This document shows positions 21,933 through 29,002 of a stretch of 64,000 bases of DNA, in pieces. A model generated the notes under the pieces. It was given only the letters and a program-made list of their open reading frames with translations. It ran no database searches and was not told the origin of the DNA. Within the stretch, counting starts at the first letter, position 1. Each line of letters opens with the position of its first letter. Source of the stretch: Barnesiella intestinihominis YIT 11860 (lineage in GTDB: Bacteria; Bacteroidota; Bacteroidia; Bacteroidales; Barnesiellaceae); contig NZ_JH815205.1 in NCBI RefSeq assembly GCF_000296465.1, positions 572,759 through 636,758 of the forward strand, written 5' to 3'. The position numbers were made by a program, and so were the translations under genes.

Positions 21933-22916
21933 CTAATACCCCAACGCTATATTATCGATCCAAAAAGTATTGCCCAATCCTCCTATATAGGCCGTTCCAC
22001 AAGTAGCCGAAGCCATTACCAACATGTGCGTTACCGGTTCGTCGGCTTCTCCCCAACCCACTTCGACCACCGGAACCATATCGCCTTTGCTGTTTCGGCA
22101 ATAATACGATTTATCTTCGGGAATAAGCCCCATATAAGATTTATAAAAAGGCTTATCGGTAATATCCCCGTAGTGAATAGGCACACTATGACCGTTAACC
22201 CAATCGGGTGTACTCTTTACATATCGTTCTCTCCCAGTGCCCACACGATGAGCGTACACATTTCCGTCCTCGTCTTCCCACCGGTGCTGCAACAAAATAT
22301 ATACTTCCGCGCTATCTCTTCCGGCCAACTGTTTCCGAGAACTGAATCCGGTCGATTCCGTACGGAAATCATCGGGCGAAGCCTTATATTTATAATCGAA
22401 AATCAATCGCACGGGACGTTTGGTGAACGGTATACCCATTTCCATTTTGCCATAGGGATTACTCGTCGAACGAATCGGCTCGTTCACCTCTCCTAAAAAA
22501 ATACTTCCGCTCACCAACACGTGAAGATTCATCATACCCAACACACGACAATCCTCTATGACGGTTTCCATACAAGCACATGTCCCGCCATTTTGACGTT
22601 TCTCCGGTCGTACGGTATTACTGGTTTTCACTATCCCCATTACATTCGCCATCACATTCGACGACGCCCAGGGAGAACCGCCCATGTTCCGATACGCTTT
22701 ATTCCCTTTGATATACTGTGTCGGAGCGATGGCGTATACAGTCTTCGTTTTTCCTCCCAACAAAGCAGATTCCTTGATTTCACGAGTTACCCAATGTTCA
22801 AAATCGCCGAAAGCTATCGGTTCCACATGTTGAGCCCTCAGACTCACCGGCTCCAAAAGACCGAGCAAAATAATAAACAAACTTAGTTTTCGCATCTTTT
22901 TCATCTTAATTTTCAC
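21933..22916 (-). CDS. PCMD-like secreted protein
   Basis: 327 aa with an N-terminal signal peptide (basic start, LSLFIILLGLLEPVSLRAQ). The body has features of the 'putative carbohydrate metabolism domain' family: an early GDFEHWV, an ETxI...GxLF-like core (SGSIFLGEVN), MGIPFTKRPVRLIFDYKYK, and a C-terminal jelly-roll end (GGLGNTFWIDNIAL). Function is unproven; the family is found with glycan or bile-exposed surface proteins of gut Bacteroidetes. It stands alone and diverges from the steroid-reductase-type operon. Three nearby Met codons leave the exact start uncertain by up to 7 residues. Confidence 0.68.
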   Translation of the reverse strand: MKIKMKKMRKLSLFIILLGLLEPVSLRAQHVEPIAFGDFEHWVTREIKESALLGGKTKTVYAIAPTQYIKGNKAYRNMGGSPWASSNVMANVMGIVKTSNTVRPEKRQNGGTCACMETVIEDCRVLGMMNLHVLVSGSIFLGEVNEPIRSTSNPYGKMEMGIPFTKRPVRLIFDYKYKASPDDFRTESTGFSSRKQLAGRDSAEVYILLQHRWEDEDGNVYAHRVGTGRERYVKSTPDWVNGHSVPIHYGDITDKPFYKSYMGLIPEDKSYYCRNSKGDMVPVVEVGWGEADEPVTHMLVMASATCGTAYIGGLGNTFWIDNIALGY

Positions 22917-22930
22917 AAAGTCAGACGTTA

Positions 22931-22938
22931 CAAAATTA
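22931..22938 (-). promoter_or_regulatory. -7 promoter element for PCMD-like gene
   Basis: Minus strand TAATTTTG, an exact TAnnTTTG match, 15-22 bp before the start codon. Confidence 0.45.
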
Positions 22939-23114
22939 AATCCTCCTTCGATTTATTGTGGACAATTATCTATTTTTAAATATTCACAGGTCCTCATTTT
23001 GTATAAAACCTTTCTATTCCGCTTTTTGTTCGAAACAAAAAATGTTTCTTTATGTAAAAATACAGAGGGTTTCAGAAAAGTATTTAAATCGGAAACGATC
23101 TCTTTAATTTTCAT

Positions 23115-23122
23115 TATTTTTG
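23115..23122 (+). promoter_or_regulatory. -7 promoter element for the steroid-reductase-type operon
   Basis: TATTTTTG matches TAnnTTTG. It gives a leader of about 120 nt before the ATG at 23251. No exact -33 TTTG is present. Apart from this box and the divergent one at 22931, the 334-bp gap 22917-23250 shows nothing further. Confidence 0.4.
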
Positions 23123-23250
23123 CAATATGTATGAAAATAGAAGCGGTTTAACACGAGAAAAAACATATTCGTCTTACTCGGCCCCTATCCCATCATGCGT
23201 TATTTTTGTAAAAACATTACTATTCATTTATCTTATATCGAAAAAACACA

Positions 23251-24024
23251 ATGGACACGGCTACATTCAATACATTCCTCGTCGTCATGGCCGTTACGGC
23301 ACTTATCGTTTTCATCGCGCTACATTTTATCAACGCGGGCTACGGTATGCTTTTCGATAAAAAATGGGGAGCATCACTTTCCAATCGCATAGGCTGGATC
23401 GTCATGGAAGCTCCGGTATTTATCGCCATGATTTTCTTATGGATTTTCGCCACCGACGAATACCGGTTCGACCCGATTCGAATCACATTCCTCGTCTTGT
23501 TTCAAATTCATTATTTCCAACGCTCTTTCATATTCCCCTTTCTCATTAAAGGGAATAGCCGCATGCCACTCAGTATCGTGAGTATGGGTATCATCTTCAA
23601 CCTGCTCAACGCACTCATGCAAGGAGGTTGGATCTTTTATATCTCACCCCTAGACTACTACACTGCCGAATGGTTCTATTCTCCGCAATTCATCATCGGA
23701 GTTATTATCTTCTTTGCGGGAATGTTTATCAACATTCAATCCGACTCCATTATACGCCACCTGCGCAAGCCCGGTGACCGACGGCATTACATACCGCAGG
23801 GAGGAATGTTCCGATGGGTATCGTCGGCAAACTATTTTGGAGAATGGCTCGAATGGGTAGGATTCGCTATCCTCACTTGGTCATGGGCCGGAGTCGTATT
23901 CGCTTGGTGGACATTCGCCAACCTCGCCCCACGGTCGGCGGCTCTTTACAAGCGATACAGCGAAGAGTTCGGAGAAGAATTTACAAAAGAAAAACGAAAA
24001 AAAATAATACCCTTCATCTATTGA
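23251..24024 (+). CDS. Steroid 5-alpha-reductase family membrane protein
   Basis: 257 aa with about six or seven membrane helices. It matches the SRD5A fold at several places: WIVMEAPVF (49-57), where E53 lies in the position of the catalytic Glu of the 'QELPSF' segment in human SRD5A2; HYFQRSFIFP (87-96), equal to the 'HYFHR' block; and SSANYFGEWLEWVG (191-204) with the 'N-[FY]-x-GE' motif that binds NADPH. The end, YKRYSEEFGEEFTKEKRKKIIPFIY, is the family's usual C-terminus. SRD5A enzymes reduce the C4-C5 double bond of 3-oxo-delta-4 steroids with NADPH; some relatives act on polyprenols or enoyl groups. It is followed 4 bp later by an ene-reductase and two dehydrogenases, which makes a steroid or bile acid substrate the best inference. 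Confidence 0.85.
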   Translation: MDTATFNTFLVVMAVTALIVFIALHFINAGYGMLFDKKWGASLSNRIGWIVMEAPVFIAMIFLWIFATDEYRFDPIRITFLVLFQIHYFQRSFIFPFLIKGNSRMPLSIVSMGIIFNLLNALMQGGWIFYISPLDYYTAEWFYSPQFIIGVIIFFAGMFINIQSDSIIRHLRKPGDRRHYIPQGGMFRWVSSANYFGEWLEWVGFAILTWSWAGVVFAWWTFANLAPRSAALYKRYSEEFGEEFTKEKRKKIIPFIY

Positions 24025-24028
24025 CAAC

Positions 24029-25276
24029 ATGGATAACGAATATTCCCAAAAACAGGCCATACTGTTCACTCCGGCTTCGATAGGCCCGATAACCCTGAGA
24101 AACCGCACAATCCGCTCAGCGGCGTTCGAAGGCATGTGCGACCATAACGCACCCACCGAAATGCTCTATGACTACCATCGCAGCGTAGCGGCAGGGGGTA
24201 TCGGTATGACCACATTGGCCTATGCTTCGGTAACCCGAAACGGGCTCTCGTTCAAACATCAATTATGGATGCGACCCGAAATCGTCAAACCGCTGCGACG
24301 CATTACAGATGCCATTCACGACGAGGGAGCCAAAGCCTCCATTCAACTTGGACATTGCGGCAATATGTCGCACCGCAGCACAGCCGGCCAGATTCCCATA
24401 TCGGCATCGACCGGATTCAACCTCTATTCCCCCACATTTGTGAGAGGAATGCGTAAAGACGAAATCAAGGAAGTCGCAAAAGCCTTTGGCACTGCCGTCA
24501 ATACAGCACGTGATGCCGGATTCGACGCAGTAGAAATCCATGCCGGACACGGTTATCTCATCAGCCAATTCCTGTCCCCGTACACCAACCGGCGGCATGA
24601 CGAATACGGAGGCTCGCTCGACAACCGCATGCGATTTATGCGCATGTGCATGGAAAATGTGATGAAAGCGGCCGGCAGCGATATGGCGGTAATCGTAAAA
24701 ACCAACATGAGAGACGGATTTAAGGGAGGAATCGAAATCGACGAAGGCATACTCATCGCACAAGAACTCGAACGCTTGGGAGCCCATGCCTTAGTATTGA
24801 GCGGAGGGTTCGTCAGCAAAGCCCCTATGTATGTCATGCGAGGCGAAATGCCCATTACCTCCATGACTTATTACATGAAAACATGGTGGCTAAAATACGG
24901 TGTCAAACTGGCCGGACGGTTCATGATACCCAAATCCCCGTTCCGAGAAGCCTATTTTCTGGACGATGCGCTCGAATTTAGAAAAGCATTGAAACTTCCC
25001 CTCATTTATGTGGGTGGTTTGGTTGCTCGTCCGACGATCGAAAAGGTGCTCGACCACGGATTCGAATTCGTACAAATGGGACGTGCGCTCATCAACGAAC
25101 CCGATTTTGTCAACCGCATGAAAAACGAAGGCGAAGAACGTTGCGGGTGCGATCATACGAACTATTGTATCGCCCGCATGTATTCCATCGAAATGGCTTG
25201 CCACAAACATTTGGAAGGACAGCTTCCCCCTTGTATCGCCCGGGAAATAGAGAAAATGCACCATGCCACGAAATAA
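24029..25276 (+). CDS. Old Yellow Enzyme family NADH:flavin oxidoreductase
   Basis: 415 aa TIM-barrel flavoprotein. Landmarks: LFTPASIGPITLRNRTIRSA, QLGHCGNMSHRS (about 106-117), HAGHGYLISQFLSPYTNRR (171-189) with the substrate-anion pair H171/H174 and nearby tyrosine Y176, DEYGGSLDNRMRF, and GGL...DFVQMGRALINEPD. Cysteines at 372, 374, 380 and 391 resemble the [4Fe-4S] site of the BaiCD/2,4-dienoyl-CoA reductase group, but the chain ends 24 residues later, without the C-terminal FAD/NAD(P)H domain of those 640-670 aa enzymes. It reduces activated C=C bonds; in this setting a 3-oxo-delta-4 (5-beta) or other steroid double bond is plausible. The next gene overlaps its end by 14 bp. Confidence 0.85.
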   Translation: MDNEYSQKQAILFTPASIGPITLRNRTIRSAAFEGMCDHNAPTEMLYDYHRSVAAGGIGMTTLAYASVTRNGLSFKHQLWMRPEIVKPLRRITDAIHDEGAKASIQLGHCGNMSHRSTAGQIPISASTGFNLYSPTFVRGMRKDEIKEVAKAFGTAVNTARDAGFDAVEIHAGHGYLISQFLSPYTNRRHDEYGGSLDNRMRFMRMCMENVMKAAGSDMAVIVKTNMRDGFKGGIEIDEGILIAQELERLGAHALVLSGGFVSKAPMYVMRGEMPITSMTYYMKTWWLKYGVKLAGRFMIPKSPFREAYFLDDALEFRKALKLPLIYVGGLVARPTIEKVLDHGFEFVQMGRALINEPDFVNRMKNEGEERCGCDHTNYCIARMYSIEMACHKHLEGQLPPCIAREIEKMHHATK

Positions 25277-26060
25277 AGATCTTTCGGCATACACGGCTCT
25301 CGTCACCGGAGCGAGTTCGGGAATCGGACTCGAATATGCCCGACAGCTAGCTGCGCAGGGAGCTAATTTGGTGATGGTGAGTATCGACCGGGAAGACCTC
25401 GATCGGGAAGCAAAAAAGATTGTCGACACCAGTGGCGTATCGGTCGAAACCATTTGCATGGATTTAGCCCAACCCGATGCGGCAAACAAACTTTACGACC
25501 ACTGCCGACAAAAAGGAATACAAATAGAGATTCTCATCAACAATGCAGGCATATTCTCTTTTCAGGAAATAACACGCACCGATCCGAAGAAGATAGAAAC
25601 GATGCTCCAACTGCACATCGGTACAATCACTCGCCTGTCCCGCCTCTTTGCCGCAGACATGTGCAACAGGAAACACGGATACATACTCAACATGTCCTCT
25701 TTATCCTGTTGGACGCCCTATCCCGGCATAGCGCTCTACACAGCGACCAAAGCCTATATCAGAGTGTTCACTCGGGCTTTGGGCTACGAATTGCGCGACT
25801 ACGGAGTCGTAGCCACAGTCGTTTGTCCCGGAGGCGTTGCCACCGGATTATACGGATTAAAACCCGGGCTACTGAAATTGGGAGTTCGGTTAGGAGTCCT
25901 TATGACAACCGAGCGCTTGGTTCGCAAAGCATTAAAAGCCCTGTTCCGAGGCAAAAAACAACTTATCCCCGGAGTATTCAACCGTCTGCTGATTCCTTTG
26001 GCATCTGTCATGCCCACCTCCATACGGCTATTTGTCAAACACCGTCTGCTCGATGAATAA
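25263..26060 (+). CDS. Short-chain dehydrogenase (hydroxysteroid dehydrogenase candidate)
   Basis: 265 aa. Classical SDR: cofactor loop TGASSGIG (15-22), NNAG (93-96), and catalytic S145/S146, Y159 and K163 (in the YTATK block). The C-terminal basic/hydrophobic region (GLKPGLLKLGVRLGVL...PLASVMPTSIRLFVKHRL) may touch the membrane, as in the 17-beta-HSD12/DltE-like branch. The Asp/Arg pattern after the second strand (SIDRED) does not settle NADH versus NADPH. It starts inside the previous gene (14 bp overlap) and its last 8 bp overlap the next one. A hydroxysteroid or bile acid keto/hydroxyl step is inferred from context; other alcohols are possible. Confidence 0.83.
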   Translation: MPRNKDLSAYTALVTGASSGIGLEYARQLAAQGANLVMVSIDREDLDREAKKIVDTSGVSVETICMDLAQPDAANKLYDHCRQKGIQIEILINNAGIFSFQEITRTDPKKIETMLQLHIGTITRLSRLFAADMCNRKHGYILNMSSLSCWTPYPGIALYTATKAYIRVFTRALGYELRDYGVVATVVCPGGVATGLYGLKPGLLKLGVRLGVLMTTERLVRKALKALFRGKKQLIPGVFNRLLIPLASVMPTSIRLFVKHRLLDE

Positions 26061-26895
26061 AGATTATTACATAGTTACCGGAGCAAACGGTAGCATAGGA
26101 CAAGCCATTACCGAAGCTCTCGCTGCCCAAAACCTCCCGGTCGTCATGGGCTGCCGGAACATAGCCAAATCACAACCCATCAGACAACGAATCATAGAGA
26201 AAACCGGTAATTCCGATATTCTCCTCTTGCCGCTCGACCTTGCCTCATTCCAGTCCATATCCCATTTTTGTAAACAACTGGCAGAAACGGGTATCTCCAT
26301 AAAAGCACTCGTTAATAATGCAGGAGTCATGTGCAAGGACTTCGGTAAAACCGTCGACGGATTCGAAACCTCGATAGGCGTCAACTACATAGGAACCGTT
26401 TTTCTCACCGAGTCGCTAATACCGCTCATGCACCCGGGGAGCCGCATTGTCATGACCACTTCGTTAACCCGATATATCGGGAAAATAGATTCCTCTTTTT
26501 TCTCCGACTCACCCCGAACCTACAAACGATTCAAGGCATACGGAAAATCGAAACTCGCCCTCACCATGTACACGGCACATTTGTCCACGAAAATTCGAGA
26601 TAAAGGAATATCGGTAAATGCGGCCGACCCCGGTATCGTCGATTCTGACATGATCACCATGCATTCTTGGGTCGATCCGTTAGCCAATCTTTTTTTTCGA
26701 CCCTTTATCAGCTCACCCCGAAAAGGAGCGATCGGAGCGATCTATGCAGCGAGTGCGCCGGATACGGATAACATTACAGGCGAAATTTTCACAAAACACC
26801 GCCATACCCCTATCCCAGCTAAATGGAGAAAGTCTCGGCAAGCCCTATGGTTGCAAAACGAAACCGAAAAAATAATAGCCGGTATTAGGTCGTAA
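26053..26895 (+). CDS. Short-chain dehydrogenase (retinol dehydrogenase-like)
   Basis: 280 aa from the ATG at 26053, which overlaps the preceding stop (ATGAATAA). An upstream in-frame Met at 26032 is possible but less compact. SDR landmarks: TGANGSIG (9-16), NNAG (88-91), S137, Y163 and K167 (YGKSK). The region around GCRNIAKS and the C-terminal WVDPLANLFFRPF resemble eukaryotic-type retinol/steroid dehydrogenase-like SDRs. A second oxidoreductase of this type in one operon suits sequential 3-keto and other keto reductions of a steroid. This is inference; the substrate is not visible. Confidence 0.82.
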   Translation: MNKDYYIVTGANGSIGQAITEALAAQNLPVVMGCRNIAKSQPIRQRIIEKTGNSDILLLPLDLASFQSISHFCKQLAETGISIKALVNNAGVMCKDFGKTVDGFETSIGVNYIGTVFLTESLIPLMHPGSRIVMTTSLTRYIGKIDSSFFSDSPRTYKRFKAYGKSKLALTMYTAHLSTKIRDKGISVNAADPGIVDSDMITMHSWVDPLANLFFRPFISSPRKGAIGAIYAASAPDTDNITGEIFTKHRHTPIPAKWRKSRQALWLQNETEKIIAGIRS

Positions 26896-27898: not shown

Positions 27899-28897
27899 TT
27901 ACAATTTACCGGCACTGCCCAATACATTTTCAATTTTGTGCTTGTACAATTTTTCCATGTTGTCACGAGCCGGGCCCAAATATTTACGAGGATCGAATTC
28001 TGCGGGTTTCGTCGCAAACACCTCGCGGATAGCGGCTGTCATAGCCAAACGGCTGTCCGAATCGATGTTGATTTTACAAACGGCCGATTTAGCTGCTTTA
28101 CGCAATTCCTCTTCGGGAATACCGATAGCGGCATCCAATTTCCCTCCGTATTTGTTGATCGTATCAACCTCTTCTTGGGGTACAGAAGACGAGCCGTGCA
28201 ATACGATGGGGAAGCCCGGAAGTTTTTCCATAACGGCATCCAATACGTCGAATGCCAAAGGAGGAGGAACCAAACGACCCGTCTTAGGATCTACATGACA
28301 TTGTTCGGGTTTGAATTTATAAGCTCCGTGAGAAGTACCGATAGAGATAGCCAAAGAATCGCAACCTGTGCGAGTAGCGAAATCGATTACTTCTTCGGGG
28401 TCGGTATAAGTGTGATGTTCTGCACTTACCTCGTCTTCTACACCGGCAAGTACACCCAGCTCACCTTCTACCGTTACATCGAATTGGTGAGCATAGTCCA
28501 CTACTTTCTTAGTCAGAGCTACATTCTCTTCGTAAGGCAAGTGAGAACCGTCGATCATTACCGAAGAAAATCCCATATCGATACAAGATTTGCACAATTC
28601 GAACGAATCGCCGTGATCGAGGTGCAGAACGATTTGAGGATGTTCGCAGCCCAACTCTTTGGCATATTCCACTGCACCCTGTGCCATATAACGAAGCAAT
28701 GTTTGGTTGGCATAGTTACGAGCGCCTTTCGAAACTTGGAGAATTACCGGCGATTTGGTTTCAACAGAAGCCTTGACAATAGCCTGTAACTGTTCCATAT
28801 TGTTAAAGTTGAAAGCGGGAATTGCATAACCGCCTTTGATAGCCTTAGCAAACATCTCTTTGGTGTTTACCAATCCTAATTCTTTGTAGCTTACCAT
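27899..28897 (-). CDS. fba: Class II fructose-bisphosphate aldolase
   Basis: 332 aa from the ATG at 28897 (MVSYKELGLVNTKEMFAKA); the open frame extends 19 codons upstream without family similarity. It cleaves fructose 1,6-bisphosphate reversibly in glycolysis and gluconeogenesis using zinc. The active-site block VLHLDHGDSFE gives D94 (acid) and H95 (zinc ligand). Later landmarks are GFSSVMIDGSHLPYEEN, VEGELGVLAGVED, and the SIGTSHGAYKF and VLHGSSSVPQE phosphate loops. It is monocistronic with its own terminator. Confidence 0.96.
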   Translation of the reverse strand: MVSYKELGLVNTKEMFAKAIKGGYAIPAFNFNNMEQLQAIVKASVETKSPVILQVSKGARNYANQTLLRYMAQGAVEYAKELGCEHPQIVLHLDHGDSFELCKSCIDMGFSSVMIDGSHLPYEENVALTKKVVDYAHQFDVTVEGELGVLAGVEDEVSAEHHTYTDPEEVIDFATRTGCDSLAISIGTSHGAYKFKPEQCHVDPKTGRLVPPPLAFDVLDAVMEKLPGFPIVLHGSSSVPQEEVDTINKYGGKLDAAIGIPEEELRKAAKSAVCKINIDSDSRLAMTAAIREVFATKPAEFDPRKYLGPARDNMEKLYKHKIENVLGSAGKL

Positions 28898-29002
28898 CTT
28901 ATAATAAATTAATGTTAGTAATTCCTCTTGTGAAAAGATTGCGAACAAAATCAATAGGACTTTTTCTTATTAACTAGTCCGGCTTGTTTTCGACAATCGT
29001 TG

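Follow-up and report, generated by a model that had tools for sequence, protein, structure and literature searches.

What do four tightly packed genes in Barnesiella intestinihominis YIT 11860 convert, and which of their two short-chain dehydrogenases (SDRs) would set the final configuration at C3? The genes occupy positions 23251-26895, all on the + strand, of a 64,000-nucleotide stretch of contig NZ_JH815205.1 (to be referred to as the window). The first (23251..24024, 257 aa) encodes a membrane reductase of the SRD5A/Steroid_dh family, a predicted 5α-reductase of 3-oxo-Δ4 steroids (5AR). It is followed by a flavin ene-oxidoreductase of the Old Yellow Enzyme family (OYE; 24029..25276, 415 aa), for which a role as 5β-reductase/dehydrogenase (5BR) is predicted. 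The third gene (SDRa; 25263..26060, 265 aa) encodes a classical SDR, the predicted second 3-hydroxysteroid dehydrogenase (HSDH) of the set, and the fourth (SDRb; 26053..26895, 280 aa from the ATG) a retinol-dehydrogenase-12-like SDR, likely its 3β-HSDH. The operon is real and conserved and belongs to a known class of steroid/bile-acid gene sets, with gene functions that are predicted throughout. As a whole, the operon-like set would take bile acids, or steroids like them, from the bent 3α,5β form to the flat 3β,5α (isoallo) form, a reading with a probability of roughly 0.55 that draws on the gene families, the conserved neighbourhood and the conserved catalytic residues. The four-gene form in the window brings together two SDR types that the relatives examined mostly carry singly.

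The spacings between the four open reading frames (ORFs) are +4, -14 and -8 bp. In gene order, their Pfam scores are 147.3 bits for Steroid_dh (PF02544), 190.9 for Oxidored_FMN (PF00724), and 147.2 and 90.7 for adh_short. The curated cut-offs of these models are 22.6, 27 and 26.6 bits, respectively, and the family matches are therefore far beyond chance. The start of SDRb is placed at ATG 26053, in agreement with the relatives; the ORF list opens this frame further upstream, at TTG 26032. An earlier reading of the letters (the original prediction) had described four co-directional genes with these coordinates, families and spacings, and the ORFs and Pfam matches confirm that description.

The neighbourhood is conserved among relatives. 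In a named collection, 80 loci were taken as the best matches to the window 5AR, some of them cut by contig ends. In 77 of the 80, an OYE gene of the same strand lies downstream of 5AR; SDRa is present in 68 (upstream in two), and SDRb in 26. Across the order, a strong 5AR (above 290 bits) is found in 20 of 149 genomes, the window's own included, and it adjoins OYE by coordinates in 16. For the comparison of gene arrangements, 113 5AR loci above 250 bits were reduced to the 97 with at least 4.5 kb of downstream sequence (16 were left out), and then to 94 by removing three duplicates. This sample is chosen rather than random, having been picked by likeness to the window 5AR with one family added on purpose. 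It contains 42 loci with 5AR, OYE and SDRa only, 24 with both SDRs in order (the window itself carries both types), 14 with SDRb only, and 14 with other arrangements. The arrangement labels cluster strongly on the 5AR tree, with 18 changes compared to 52.6 for shuffled labels, and none of 200 shuffles gave a number as low.

A few loci depart from these patterns. At L013, from a Rikenellaceae metagenome-assembled genome (MAG), the SDRb match is in two separate pieces and so appears broken; this locus is counted as the four-gene type. SDRa is located upstream rather than downstream of 5AR at L060 and L072, which are counted as SDRb only. At L139, L140, L142 and L007, no OYE match separates 5AR from the SDRb that comes after it. 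L146 is below the 5AR score threshold and lies outside the tree.

The two SDR types are kept by different groups. On the 5AR tree, a clade of 27 Rikenellaceae rows consists entirely of SDRa loci (support 100/94). SDRb was not detected (E 1e-15) in any of the 10 genomes behind SDRa-only Rikenellaceae loci, several of them MAGs whose completeness was not given; at the same threshold it was found in both four-gene control genomes. In a family that contains Parabacteroides, 14 of 78 sampled genomes have a 5AR, and SDRb is downstream of it at all 14 loci, mostly in the order 5AR-OYE-SDRb. At these loci, SDRa matches are confined to weak cross-hits on the SDRb gene. A search of 12 of the 14 genomes (G164 and G154 were left out) found no SDRa anywhere in 10 of them (E 1e-20), and G187 and G151 each have one match (41% and 33%, respectively). 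With an SDRb of this family as the query, the only match in the window genome is the window SDRb, at 40%. The SDRb of one Parabacteroides record is annotated as retinol dehydrogenase-12. Five organism names stand near the family proteins, all Parabacteroides or Tannerellaceae, and a second list has three of these plus a less similar Candidatus Caccoplasma. From these names we infer that the family is Tannerellaceae.

The core of this gene set is already in print. According to passages of a review (PMC10382948), the 5AR gene of Parabacteroides merdae is clustered with a predicted 3β-HSDH and an NADH:flavin oxidoreductase, and disruption of this 5AR, in work cited there, abolishes the allo products. 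The same source reports the conversion of 3-oxo-Δ4-lithocholic acid (3-oxo-Δ4-LCA) to isoalloLCA by P. merdae, O. laneus and B. dorei, and the formation of 3-oxo-alloLCA by twenty other Bacteroidota strains. Bacteroidetes gene clusters are also cited for the isoallo route in passages of a second review (PMC12697870). The likeness to a known Bacteroidota steroid- and bile-acid-reducing set that was named in the original prediction is thus borne out. Its suggestion that the set might be new is not supported for the core: the combination of 5AR, flavin oxidoreductase and 3β-HSDH is not new (passages of PMC10382948 and PMC12697870). The distribution pattern of SDRa and SDRb was not found in print. 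Nothing on Barnesiella with this operon was found among the literature matches listed, two of which (PMC10798360 and PMC11594618) contain the genus name.

The published species lists, which give examples rather than full tests, bear on the identity of the 3β-HSDH. A review table (passages of PMC12692668) assigns the conversion of 3-oxo-Δ4-LCA to 3-oxoalloLCA to P. goldsteinii, B. theta and A. onderdonkii; its entries for 3β-HSDH are O. laneus, Odoribacteraceae, P. distasonis and P. merdae. Another source (passages of PMC12789469) has Alistipes and B. dorei under 5AR but not under 3β-HSD, and P. merdae under both. Since Alistipes carries SDRa and P. merdae belongs to the SDRb-bearing family, the 3β-HSDH role is assigned to SDRb. 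On this gene distribution, SDRb is likely the better 3β-HSDH candidate, and SDRa the extra enzyme. The original prediction, which took the second SDR for the extra step, probably had the two reversed, as the Parabacteroides-containing family keeps SDRb and 10 of its 12 searched genomes are without SDRa.

In the proposed pathway, a 3-HSDH, most likely SDRa, would exchange the 3-hydroxyl of a 5β steroid for a 3-oxo group. OYE would then add or remove hydrogen over C4-C5 on the 5β side, by way of its FMN, to give the 3-oxo-Δ4 steroid. Because the protein has no FAD/NAD domain, the electrons would be exchanged with an external partner by way of its predicted C-terminal Fe-S site. The membrane 5AR, driven by NADPH, would convert the 3-oxo-Δ4 to the 3-oxo-5α steroid, with E53 and Y88 positioned on the C3 carbonyl, and SDRb would reduce the 3-oxo-5α product to the 3β-alcohol. 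The net conversion would be redox-neutral.

The window 5AR is closer in sequence to steroid reductases than to a very-long-chain enoyl-CoA reductase, with 182 bits to PbSRD5A (7c83) and 138 bits to human SRD5A2 (7bw1) compared to 40 bits. Placement in an enoyl-CoA branch, which the original prediction had named as a possible refutation, is therefore not what is observed. No SRD5A3 appeared among the matches in this comparison, into which no SRD5A3 sequence was brought. The segments noted earlier (E53, HYFQR and N-Y-F-G-E) are all present. The catalytic Glu57 and Tyr91 (HsSRD5A2 numbering) correspond to E53 and Y88, and neither residue changes in any of the 201 rows compared, which comprise the window protein together with 80 loci and 120 database proteins (these last two sets overlap). 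Among the NADPH contacts N160, D164, R171, N193, E197, R227, H231 and Y235, seven of the eight are kept in the window, the exception being H231, which is L232.

There is one departure in the catalytic segment. In place of Gln56 of the QEY signature the window has M52, and this position is likewise Met in all 201 rows and in each of 28 additional Bacteroidales rows. The window protein is filed on this account as a Bacteroidota-type relative rather than a QEY enzyme. The position of His231 has Ile or Leu in 199 of 201 rows. In human SRD5A2, the Q56A/L changes are inactivating and H231A is tolerated, according to passages of PMC7815742, and hence the Met is the departure in 5AR that is worth testing. 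For the same reason, the His231 to Leu change was dropped as a sign of NADH use. Seven distant Bacteroidales SRD5A proteins (L107-L113), separated from the cluster-associated 5AR clade with 100/100 support, have Met for Gln56 as well but His at 231, and Met was consequently rejected as a mark of the cluster enzymes alone. The cluster-associated clade has mostly Ile, Leu or Val where His231 is expected.

These two substitutions, which depart from the published SRD5A set, could also indicate that the 5AR-like protein reduces another lipid, of polyprenol or enoyl type, and that the operon belongs to lipid metabolism. No NCBIfam model matches the window 5AR at E 0.001, and SRD5A3 lies outside the comparison, both of which leave some room for this idea. 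It is nonetheless very improbable, given a sequence that is nearer to SRD5A than to an enoyl-CoA reductase, the frequent pairing of 5AR with OYE and SDRs, the tolerance of human SRD5A2 for H231A (passages of PMC7815742) and the loss of allo products reported on disruption of the P. merdae 5AR (passages of PMC10382948).

OYE ends in a Cys-rich extension and lacks an FAD/NAD domain. H171, H174 and Y176 are conserved in 96 of 96 rows, as are C380 and C391, while C374 and H376 are found in 95 of 96. Its predicted model aligns with 2-naphthoyl-CoA reductase and TMADH up to residue 414, and the aligned range in these two best structure matches stops at residue 454 of 664 (6qkg) and 438 of 729 (2tmd). 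An identity as BaiCD was rejected on score, 187 bits against a cut-off of 825 (NCBIfam NF041087). The protein has 415 residues against the 642 positions of that model; the best stretch covers 4-261, and one second stretch also passes. The C-terminal FAD/NAD domain that follows the Fe-S segment in BaiCD was not found in OYE by either the BaiCD model or the structure matches. Residues 264-310, after the seventh strand, are modeled less well (pLDDT below 50 at 264-271); in the model, this segment could be a substrate lid.

Both SDRs have the glycine-rich NAD(P) motif, NNAG and the Ser-Tyr-Lys residues of classical SDRs. The intact triads of the original prediction are confirmed as S145-Y159-K163 in SDRa and S137-Y163-K167 in SDRb. 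Across 75 SDRa rows, Ser is present in 70 and Tyr and Lys in all 75; across 45 SDRb rows, each of the three is present in all 45 (window included). The predicted model of SDRb, based on 24 sequences, has a pLDDT of 92.2. Its nearest folds are LPOR and 3rd5, followed by other SDRs including carbonyl reductases and a 20β-HSDH, a likeness of fold only. BaiCD, BaiH and 3β-HSDHs are absent from the best 50 structure matches listed for each of SDRb and OYE, which excludes nothing.

Several observations weigh against the isoallo reading. Met stands in place of the QEY Gln, whose change to Ala or Leu kills human SRD5A2, yet it is present in every Bacteroidales row. The Fe-S site of OYE lacks a confident model, with pLDDT below 50 for residues 381-385. 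In the Parabacteroides-containing family OYE is found at 11 of the 14 loci and is missing from 3, and the SDRb there shares just 40% identity with that of the window. Outside the all-SDRa clade, two other Rikenellaceae loci, L007 and L013, have SDRb matches. SDRb-like genes are located away from any 5AR (41% in G108; on other contigs in G001 and G120), and additional SDRa-like copies are found elsewhere in G003, G081, G106 and G113. P. distasonis is listed for 3β-HSDH, and P. goldsteinii is listed for 5AR, with 3-oxoalloLCA as the product, and not for 3β-HSDH (passages of PMC12692668). Should P. goldsteinii have an SDRb, as the sampled members of its family do, the presence of SDRb would not by itself predict 3β-HSDH.

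The steroid set could then be as proposed with the SDR roles changed: SDRa would be the 3β-HSDH and SDRb the extra enzyme, or both would be interchangeable 3-oxo reductases that replace one another. The P. goldsteinii entry would fit such a scheme, as would the more frequent occurrence of SDRa alone after 5AR and OYE (42 of the 94 non-random loci, against 14 for SDRb alone). However, Alistipes is likewise listed for 5AR without 3β-HSDH (passages of PMC12789469 and PMC12692668), SDRb was not found in the 10 tested SDRa-only Rikenellaceae genomes, and the retention of both SDRs at 24 of 94 loci would not be favoured by pure interchangeability. We regard these altered roles as unlikely.

The habitats of some relatives raise a separate question, that of the substrate. 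By their titles, six of the 80 loci (L012, L014, L036, L040, L057 and L072) come from samples of the rumen, abomasum, reticulum or omasum. These compartments precede the entry of the bile duct, which also counts against the bile-acid reading. L031, L033, L052 and L071 are from 'RUG' MAGs, which we assume to be of rumen origin and count on the same side. As bile acids are not expected in the forestomach or stomach, some or all of the 5AR family may have plant or other steroids as native substrates, and these forestomach relatives argue against a role limited to bile acids. That dietary or plant steroids, or other 3-oxo-Δ4 sterols, are the native substrates in general and bile acids incidental is a real possibility, although not the one we favour. 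The labels of MAG habitats are no guide to where genes are expressed, and activity on 3-oxo-Δ4-LCA is reported for P. merdae, O. laneus and B. dorei (passages of PMC10382948).

With the isoallo reading retained, the locus makes a Barnesiella-like genome a candidate for the still growing list of gut bacteria that complete the isoallo route. IsoalloLCA is described in passages of reviews as promoting regulatory T cells, and in one of them (PMC10382948) as inhibiting Gram-positive pathogens. The distribution offers a genotype rule, by which SDRb would predict 3β-hydroxy (isoallo) products and SDRa alone 3-oxo-allo products. For enzymology, the interest lies in a 5AR family that lacks the Gln considered essential in human SRD5A2, and in an OYE that ends after an Fe-S-like segment. 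A more ambitious and rather doubtful extension is that the Barnesiella-like cell houses a self-contained double epimerase, in which two opposite 3-HSDHs, a ring-5β dehydrogenase fed by a bare Fe-S site and a Met-type 5AR would take lithocholic-type substrates to isoallo products at no net redox cost, while most Alistipes and Parabacteroides, holding one SDR end each, would leave the route or join it at the 3-oxo stage.

The operon is flanked upstream by a gene for a PCMD-domain protein (21933-22916, - strand) and downstream by one for a class-II fructose-bisphosphate aldolase (27899-28954, - strand). In the upstream alignment, a promoter-like element, TATTTTTG, is located at 23115..23122 on the + strand, and TAT[T/C]TTTG is found at this position in five of five sequences (the window, L002, L003, L004 and L085). 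We take it to be a putative Bacteroidales -7 motif. No -33 element was seen by eye in the aligned stretches upstream of 5AR. The Barnesiella-group sequences compared also share parts of the intergenic region 22916-23251, which faces the divergent PCMD-domain gene. Among the shared parts is a CAAAATTA block, presumably a -7 motif on the opposite strand. The window genome (3.44 Mb, 5 contigs) has one Steroid_dh match and one OYE match. Two CBAH (bile-salt-hydrolase family) proteins are encoded elsewhere in it, which we count in favour of the bile-acid reading. In the named collection, the 5AR loci closest to that of the window (86-88% identity) belong to two Barnesiella records and an uncultured Bacteroidales, and these three, the window 5AR and a same-genus genome form one clade (support 100/99).

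Among known systems, the window set resembles the isoallo-bile-acid cluster of P. merdae and its relatives, in the same phylum, in which 5AR, a flavin ene-oxidoreductase and an SDR likewise lie together (passages of PMC10382948 and PMC12697870). It differs in having four overlapping genes with both SDR types, the published proteins being compared by description. The order 5AR-OYE-SDRb is present at 11 of the 14 loci of the family with Parabacteroides names nearby. The clostridial BaiP/BaiJ with BaiA1 also produce allo (5α) bile acids from 3-oxo-Δ4 intermediates; in contrast to them, the window 5AR is of the SRD5A type, and the paper on BaiP/BaiJ itself separates them from the membrane-associated Bacteroidetes 5α-reductases (passages of PMC9645264). 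Like BaiCD and the steroid-hormone 5β-reductase clade (ci2350), the window OYE is an OYE-family ene-reductase with Tyr at the catalytic position (passages of PMC11722256), but it differs in keeping a YqjM-like H-x2-H-x-Y site and in having no FAD/NAD domain. Finally, the window 5AR is like human SRD5A2 and PbSRD5A (7bw1, 7c83) in its catalytic Glu and Tyr and in seven of the eight listed NADPH contacts, and differs from both in having Met for Gln56 and Leu for His231.

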